From Gryllotalpicola ginsengisoli DSM 22003 (GTDB taxonomy: Bacteria; Actinomycetota; Actinomycetes; Actinomycetales; Microbacteriaceae), in assembly GCF_000419445.1 (NCBI RefSeq), contig NZ_AULK01000001.1:372001-436000 (forward strand): a stretch of 64,000 bases of DNA. The letters are read 5' to 3'. Under the pieces are notes generated by a model. The model made no database searches and was not told the DNA's origin. It worked only from the letters and a program-made list of their open reading frames with translations. Positions 49,074 through 49,201 of this stretch are shown here, one piece after another. Each line of letters opens with the position of its first letter. Within the stretch, counting starts at the first letter, position 1. The translations under genes and the position numbers were made by a program.

Positions 49074-49140
49074 CGCTCTACTCGCTTGTGTTCTCGAAGG
49101 GAAGAAGCCGACGACGAGACTCCGCGACGGGCCTGGCCTC
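49074..49140 (-). promoter_or_regulatory. leuA attenuator region
   Basis: Between leader stop and leuA start. Segment CGTCGCGG (49129-49122) can pair with CCGCGACG in the leader codons (49162-49155, 8 bp). Segment CTCGTC (49118-49113) can pair with GACGAG at 49158-49153, which uses partly the same leader bases. The two pairings exclude each other. No T run is seen, so control could be translational or Rho-dependent. Confidence 0.5.
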
Positions 49141-49188
49141 TTAGATCGAGGACTCGTCGCGGCAGCTAAGGAGGAGCTGGCCGAACAT
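49141..49188 (-). CDS. leuL: Leucine leader peptide (15 aa)
   Basis: Encodes [15 protein letters not shown] with consecutive codons CTC, CTC, CTT for Leu5-7. A TAGCCT -10 box ends 7 nt before the ATG, so the transcript probably begins with the leader's start codon. It stops 67 bp before leuA. The arrangement suits ribosome stalling at leucine codons when charged tRNA-Leu is scarce. Confidence 0.7.
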
Positions 49189-49195
49189 CGCGCTC

Positions 49196-49201
49196 AGGCT
49201 A
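49196..49201 (-). promoter_or_regulatory. -10 box of the leuL-leuA transcript
   Basis: Reverse-strand TAGCCT, 7 nt before the leuL ATG. No convincing -35 hexamer is visible at the expected distance. Confidence 0.5.

Follow-up and report, generated by a model that had tools for sequence, protein, structure and literature searches.

What is the short, leucine-rich reading frame that precedes leuA in Gryllotalpicola ginsengisoli, and how might it sense leucine? We studied it within a stretch of 64,000 nucleotides of this genome (the window). By its sequence, the frame belongs to the LEU element, described 5' of leuA in Actinobacteria by Seliverstov et al. in 2005, in a text that gives leuA as its only target and prefers a protein as the regulator (PMC1262725). 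The mechanism of this element has been unsettled since 1999-2005: leader mutations were ambiguous and a binding protein was proposed. We consider it rather probable that the LEU element is a ribosome-mediated leucine attenuator with a leaderless leader, in which stalling would be the signal and the translation of leuA the read-out.

The leader of leuA, its promoter and its conservation

The leader and its promoter are flanked by era (ending at 49307) and leuA (ATG at 49073), both on the minus strand (Table 1). The original prediction had described a 15-codon frame with CTC-CTC-CTT, 7 nt after a TAGCCT box and ahead of leuA, and this frame is indeed there, on the minus strand: the hexamer occupies 49201-49196, the leader ATG lies 7 nt further on at 49188, the TAA stop is at 49143-49141, and 67 nt separate the end of the leader from the start of leuA. 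A -35 sequence was not recognisable in this promoter in the window sequence. No intrinsic terminator was found between the leader and leuA in the window, where the original prediction had noted that a T run is missing, and the Streptomyces lividans orthologue is also without a terminator (PMC8079986). The sole terminator-like hit was a hairpin with TTTTT where the era coding sequence ends, by its stop codon (49326-49307, minus strand).

Table 1. Features of the leuA leader region in the window, and further copies of the element.
Feature	Position or locus	Strand	Basis
leuA, full 2-isopropylmalate synthase, gene under control	47304..49073	-	
Extended -10 box TGTTAGCCT, 7 nt 5' of leader start codon	49196..49204	-	sequence; spacing kept in relatives
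15-codon leader ORF ATGTTCGGCCAGCTCCTCCTTAGCTGCCGCGACGAGTCCTCGATCTAA, predicted leaderless	49141..49188	-	leader kept in 50/50 Microbacteriaceae members
Sensor codons CTC CTC CTT (Leu), leader codons 5-7	49168..49176	-	Leu conserved class-wide
P1 hairpin 5' arm CCGCGACGAG, leader codons 9-12	49153..49162	-	covariation
P1 hairpin 3' arm CCCGTCGCGG, one mismatch in window copy	49122..49131	-	covariation
Pseudoknot helix P2, 5' strand AGAGGCC, inside P1 loop	49135..49141	-	P2 covariation class-wide (z 11.4)
Pseudoknot helix P2, 3' strand GGCTTCT	49103..49109	-	covariation
Base stem, sensor strand GCTCCTCCTT	49168..49177	-	covariation and lowest-energy fold
leuA ribosome-binding region AAGCGAGTAGAGC, pairs with sensor strand (10 bp, two bulges)	49075..49087	-	lowest-energy fold
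leuC-copy element, outside window	L161:4702-4785 = G000:C1:609701-609784		R1 match
leuB(-ilvE) copies, Val/Ile/Leu sensor codons	L192, L207, L226, L255, L257, L260, L264, L266, L267, L269, L270, L273, L274, L276-L279, L285, L318-L320, L324, L326		
Small protein after element, like stand-alone LeuA allosteric (dimerisation) domain	L317 (G326), L322 (G198)		

The folding energy of the window element as a single sequence is unremarkable (z -1.05), so that the comparison with relatives must decide. Rfam release 15 gave no match at gathering score, to the T-box or any other family, at the window element or at the other loci scanned; the LEU element is nearly universal in the class, yet has no Rfam match in these loci.

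Our sample of Microbacteriaceae comprised 60 genomes, 57 of them with leuA. We read 50 of these leuA genes, and every one was preceded by a leader starting with ATG or GTG. TG preceded the -10 hexamer in 46 of the 50. The distance from the end of TANNNT to the leader start was 6 nt in 42 cases, 7 nt in seven and 9 nt in one, counts that are not unbiased because these starts were picked with the hexamer in view. We built a model (R1) from the Microbacteriaceae elements with the promoter region excluded, and it matched in 345 of the 361 good genomes of the class. Matches outside the class occurred in two of about 180 genomes drawn across the phylum, both 5' of leuA, and the element is almost exclusive to the class. 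With a hairpin-only model (R2), searched in 110 genomes of the class, the matches read concerned only leuA, leuB, leuC and LeuA-domain genes. The case against chance is thus comparative: it lies in the leader found in all 50 relatives and in the class-wide matches of a promoter-free model. The original prediction of a leucine leader peptide is borne out by this comparison, which identifies the window element as a real, strongly conserved, putative leucine sensor of Actinobacteria and a member of the LEU element.

From the class we extracted 138 elements, spread over about 100 genera: leuA accounted for 100, leuC for 19, leuB for 18 and a second type of leuA for one. For an unbiased count of the spacing, the nearest in-frame ATG or GTG was taken as the leader start and the promoter was ignored. 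TANNNT then lay 6-10 nt before the start in 78 of 97 leuA leaders, 45 of 50 Microbacteriaceae leuA leaders, 13 of 19 leuC leaders and 17 of 18 leuB leaders, against a background of at most one per position. In leuC leaders the true start is frequently not the nearest GTG; when the start was chosen by promoter spacing, all 19 fitted 6-7 nt, a choice that is not independent of the spacing. An SD-like sequence preceded the leader start in only 2 of 185 cases. Since the spacing between the -10 box and the start codon is conserved class-wide, the leuA leader is most likely leaderless, as had been predicted for the window and as reported for the S. lividans orthologue (PMC8079986).

Conserved pairings and sensor codons

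For each element we took the best helix between two of its regions and set it against the best helix obtained when one of these regions came from another element, using the reversed strand as a control. In this test, which keeps composition and is not tree-aware, the hairpin P1 reached z 15.9 class-wide (control 0.6) and P2, which joins the P1 loop to sequence 3' of P1, z 11.4 (control 0.8). The reversed-strand controls used the same sequences and stayed flat, which speaks against relatedness as the source of the pairing excess. Among Microbacteriaceae, P1 (CCGCGACGAG/CTCGTCGCGG) is paired in 99.2% of cells, and two of its pairs change on both sides. The P1 loop holds the leader stop codon in every one of 135 elements. 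P2 has 7 bp in the window (49141-49135 with 49109-49103), and further examples are GTCAGCCA/TGGCTGAC, CGGTCGGT/ACCGACCG and GAGGGCCAC/GTGGCCCTC. An extension of P1 by the preceding codons (AGCTG with CGGCT) was at best weak.

A third helix joins the sensor codons to the start region of the gene; in leuA these codons double as the strand covering the SD. The sensor codons and the 30 nt before the gene start, for leuA and leuC together, gave z 4.9 (control 0.3), in a test weakened by some wrong gene starts among those called by homology. In the lowest-energy fold of the window, the stem consists of GCTC/GAGC, CTC/GAG and CTT/AAG with two bulges (49177-49168 with 49087-49075); it is exemplified also by CTCGTCTGCTCCTT/AAGGAGCGGACGAG, CGCGGGCTTCTT/GAGGAGCCCGTG and TCCTTCG/CGAAGGA. 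Neither P2 nor the sensor stem was significant in the leuC copies alone (19 close relatives), and in the leuB copies the pairing of sensor and SD was unsupported, either with leuB or with the small ORF ahead of it. Covering the sensor raised the predicted accessibility of the SD from 0.33 to 0.42 (p 1e-4); shuffling the sensor also raised this accessibility (p 1e-3). These values come from nested folding, with P2 left out; the change is modest and not found in every copy, and the leuC copy of the G. ginsengisoli genome goes the opposite way.

Leu stands at each of the three sensor positions almost throughout the leuA leaders (93, 99 and 100%). The leuC leaders also carry Leu sensor codons, and those of leuB have Val, Ile and Leu. 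Taking the target genes, not whole genomes, as codon background, CTT accounts for 138 of 322 Leu codons in leuA leaders vs 47 of 1,733 in leuA genes, and GTA for 17 of 26 Val codons in leuB leaders vs 4 of 310 in leuB genes. The enrichment of CTT in leuA leaders could be partly due to the pairing with the SD; for leuB leaders, rarity as a property of the sensor is the simpler reading because that pairing is unsupported there. By these comparisons, the sensor codons track the product of the operon and are enriched in the rare codons CTT and GTA.

Copies ahead of leuC, leuB-ilvE and LeuA-domain genes

The same genome contains a second element, 5' of leuC (leuCD), matched by R1 with an E-value of 6.5e-14 and not among the sequences from which R1 was built. 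Its leader is VPVVQLLLSRRDGA, closed by a stop, and the -10 box TGATAGCCT lies 7 nt ahead of it. These two copies, of leuA and leuC, are present in most of the Microbacteriaceae searched. In other actinobacterial families a second copy lies ahead of leuB, with leaders such as MRFVLILRCRDGA, MRSVFVLIDCRGEA and MRQVLVLITCRGGA, each followed by a stop. The start of leuB is 159-690 nt downstream of its element, and the next long frame in the nine leuB loci that we translated is ilvE by sequence (one was scanned against NCBIfam). At this distance, and with the sensor/SD pairing unsupported, the read-out of the leuB copies may differ from that of leuA. Several loci (L192, L207, L226, L255, L264, L269, L277, L326 and others) have a short frame between the element and leuB, some 30-45 residues long and with LQxALDRRDNGG near its end, and RDNGG or a near form is found in the short frame before leuB in most leuB copies. 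This frame had no Pfam or NCBIfam match; it may open the leuB-ilvE operon as its first gene.

In two genomes of one family (f11), an element whose leader is MKNILVVRRRSGV or MLYIANALVTRRSGV up to the stop, with Ile, Leu and Val codons, precedes a small protein. One of these proteins (L317) matches LeuA_dimer (PF08502, E 1.3e-9); the other (L322) resembles LeuA_dimer but has no Pfam match. Some genomes have second leuA paralogues with a LEU element of their own (L246, L261, L281, L316, L321, L325, L338).

In the open-licence papers to which our search was confined, we met no mention of the element ahead of leuC or leuB. The leuC and leuB-ilvE copies and the swap of the sensor, which we could not find described, are thus apparently undescribed, and a search of this scope is no proof of novelty. 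We regard it as likely, with good confidence, that the LEU element is one case of a modular attenuator found throughout the class. Such a module would keep the leaderless start, the P1/P2 pseudoknot and the stop in the loop fixed and exchange the sensor codons (Leu for leuA and leuC(D); Val/Ile/Leu with the rare GTA and CTT for leuB-ilvE; Ile/Leu/Val for the stand-alone gene of the LeuA allosteric domain), and would sense through the stalling of ribosomes instead of through protein binding.

Proposed mechanism, rival explanations and known systems

Transcription of leuA would start at or beside the leader start codon, and the 15 codons would be translated as a leaderless ORF. When leucine is plentiful, the ribosome would pass the Leu codons and the 5' arm of P1, reach the stop in the P1 loop and leave. 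P1 and the pseudoknot P2 could then fold, the Leu codons would pair with the ribosome-binding region of leuA, and leuA would be translated poorly. When charged tRNA-Leu is scarce, the ribosome would stall on the Leu codons and mask them, which would free the start region of leuA and turn the gene on. Sequence comparison supports the parts of this scheme, i.e., the leader, the sensor codons, the promoter spacing, P1, P2, the sensor/SD pairing and the stop in the loop; from these we infer stalling as the signal and a translational read-out.

At leuA this read-out is most likely translational. The same leaderless leucine sensor could also be read out in transcription, if leader translation, as opposed to stalling, altered the access of Rho or the pausing of the polymerase at the pseudoknot. 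We find this unlikely. It would fit the missing intrinsic terminator, and a read-out that does without the SD could be common to all copies, including the distant leuB ones with their unsupported sensor/SD pairing; for actinobacterial cys leaders, the text of PMC1262725 suggests a role of Rho. Yet it does not need the covariation of sensor and SD seen in leuA and leuC (z 4.9), and the window offers only 67 nt between the leader stop and the start of leuA. The proposal of 2005, that a regulatory protein binds the element and that the leader peptide is incidental, drew in the text of PMC1262725 on phylogenetic co-occurrence and weak effects of leader mutations. The high conservation of the pseudoknot would suit it, but a protein site needs no product-matched sensor codons, no rare codons and no kept frame, start and stop, all of which are present. 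For these reasons the sequence data favour stalling, and we think a protein site very improbable. A contrary point comes from Streptomyces coelicolor, where mutations of the leuA leader had some effect, inconsistent with classical attenuation, as reported in the text of PMC1262725.

Classical attenuation, as the original prediction had it, would make leader codons 9-12 alternate between 49131-49122 and 49119-49108. Both pairings can form in the window sequence, and its nested fold prefers the second; this preference says little, since a nested fold cannot score a pseudoknot. When Microbacteriaceae are aligned, the leader and P1 are kept, and the covariation of P1 upholds the first pairing. The second (CTCGTCG within 49119-49108) is formed in 85% of cells in this family but shows no excess of covariation there, nor class-wide (z -1.2). 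The window element also has neither the intrinsic terminator nor the leader ribosome-binding site of a classical transcription attenuator. A switch between these two pairings seems to us hardly credible.

The extra copies matter as natural swaps of the sensor alone. They separate the constant part (pseudoknot, start and stop) from the part that tracks the amino acid, and make the question of sensing testable in Streptomyces or Corynebacterium. They also point to one control shared by several steps in the synthesis of branched-chain amino acids, and the class is one that serves to produce amino acids.

The novelty that the original prediction implied does not hold, as Streptomyces and Corynebacterium are known to have leader peptides that are leaderless; overlooked there were P2, the helix between the Leu codons and the leuA start region, the leuC copy and the earlier description of the element. 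This description, of 2005, shares with ours the place, a leader ORF with a Leu run, a pseudoknot, a base stem between Leu codons and the leuA SD, and no terminator, as far as the text of PMC1262725 goes. Our P2 and sensor stem are the counterparts of that text's pseudoknot and base stem. The window copy has the place, the Leu run, P1 and P2 that can form, the base stem and no terminator, its structure being predicted. Relative to the text of 2005, we add copies ahead of leuC and leuB-ilvE whose sensor codons match, the conserved leaderless geometry and the stop that is always in the P1 loop. The leader leuL1 of S. lividans (MRFGLLLLSCRGEGL), which precedes leuA, is leaderless and without terminator (PMC8079986); it is orthologous to the leader of the window and, like it, lacks a terminator, but its 5' end was mapped by RNA-seq whereas ours is deduced from sequence. 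Leaderlessness is therefore not new. Leu leaders are also reported in Corynebacterium diphtheriae (MNRANLLLLRRGGSQA) and C. glutamicum (PMC5784534, PMC4046766), and a leuA uORF of Mycobacterium abscessus is ribosome-protected (PMC4974804).

The window copy itself therefore adds to the known LEU kind; undescribed, as far as we could find, are the copies ahead of leuC and of leuB-ilvE and the swap of the sensor. The mycobacterial leaderless cysteine leader ORFs, reportedly described by Canestrari in 2020, are alike in being short leaderless ORFs rich in the codon of their pathway; the amino acid and the genes differ. The enterobacterial leu and trp and the actinobacterial ilvB systems are transcription attenuators with intrinsic terminators. 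Unlike them, the LEU element has neither an intrinsic terminator nor a leader ribosome-binding site; what it shares with them is a set of sensor codons matched to the product.
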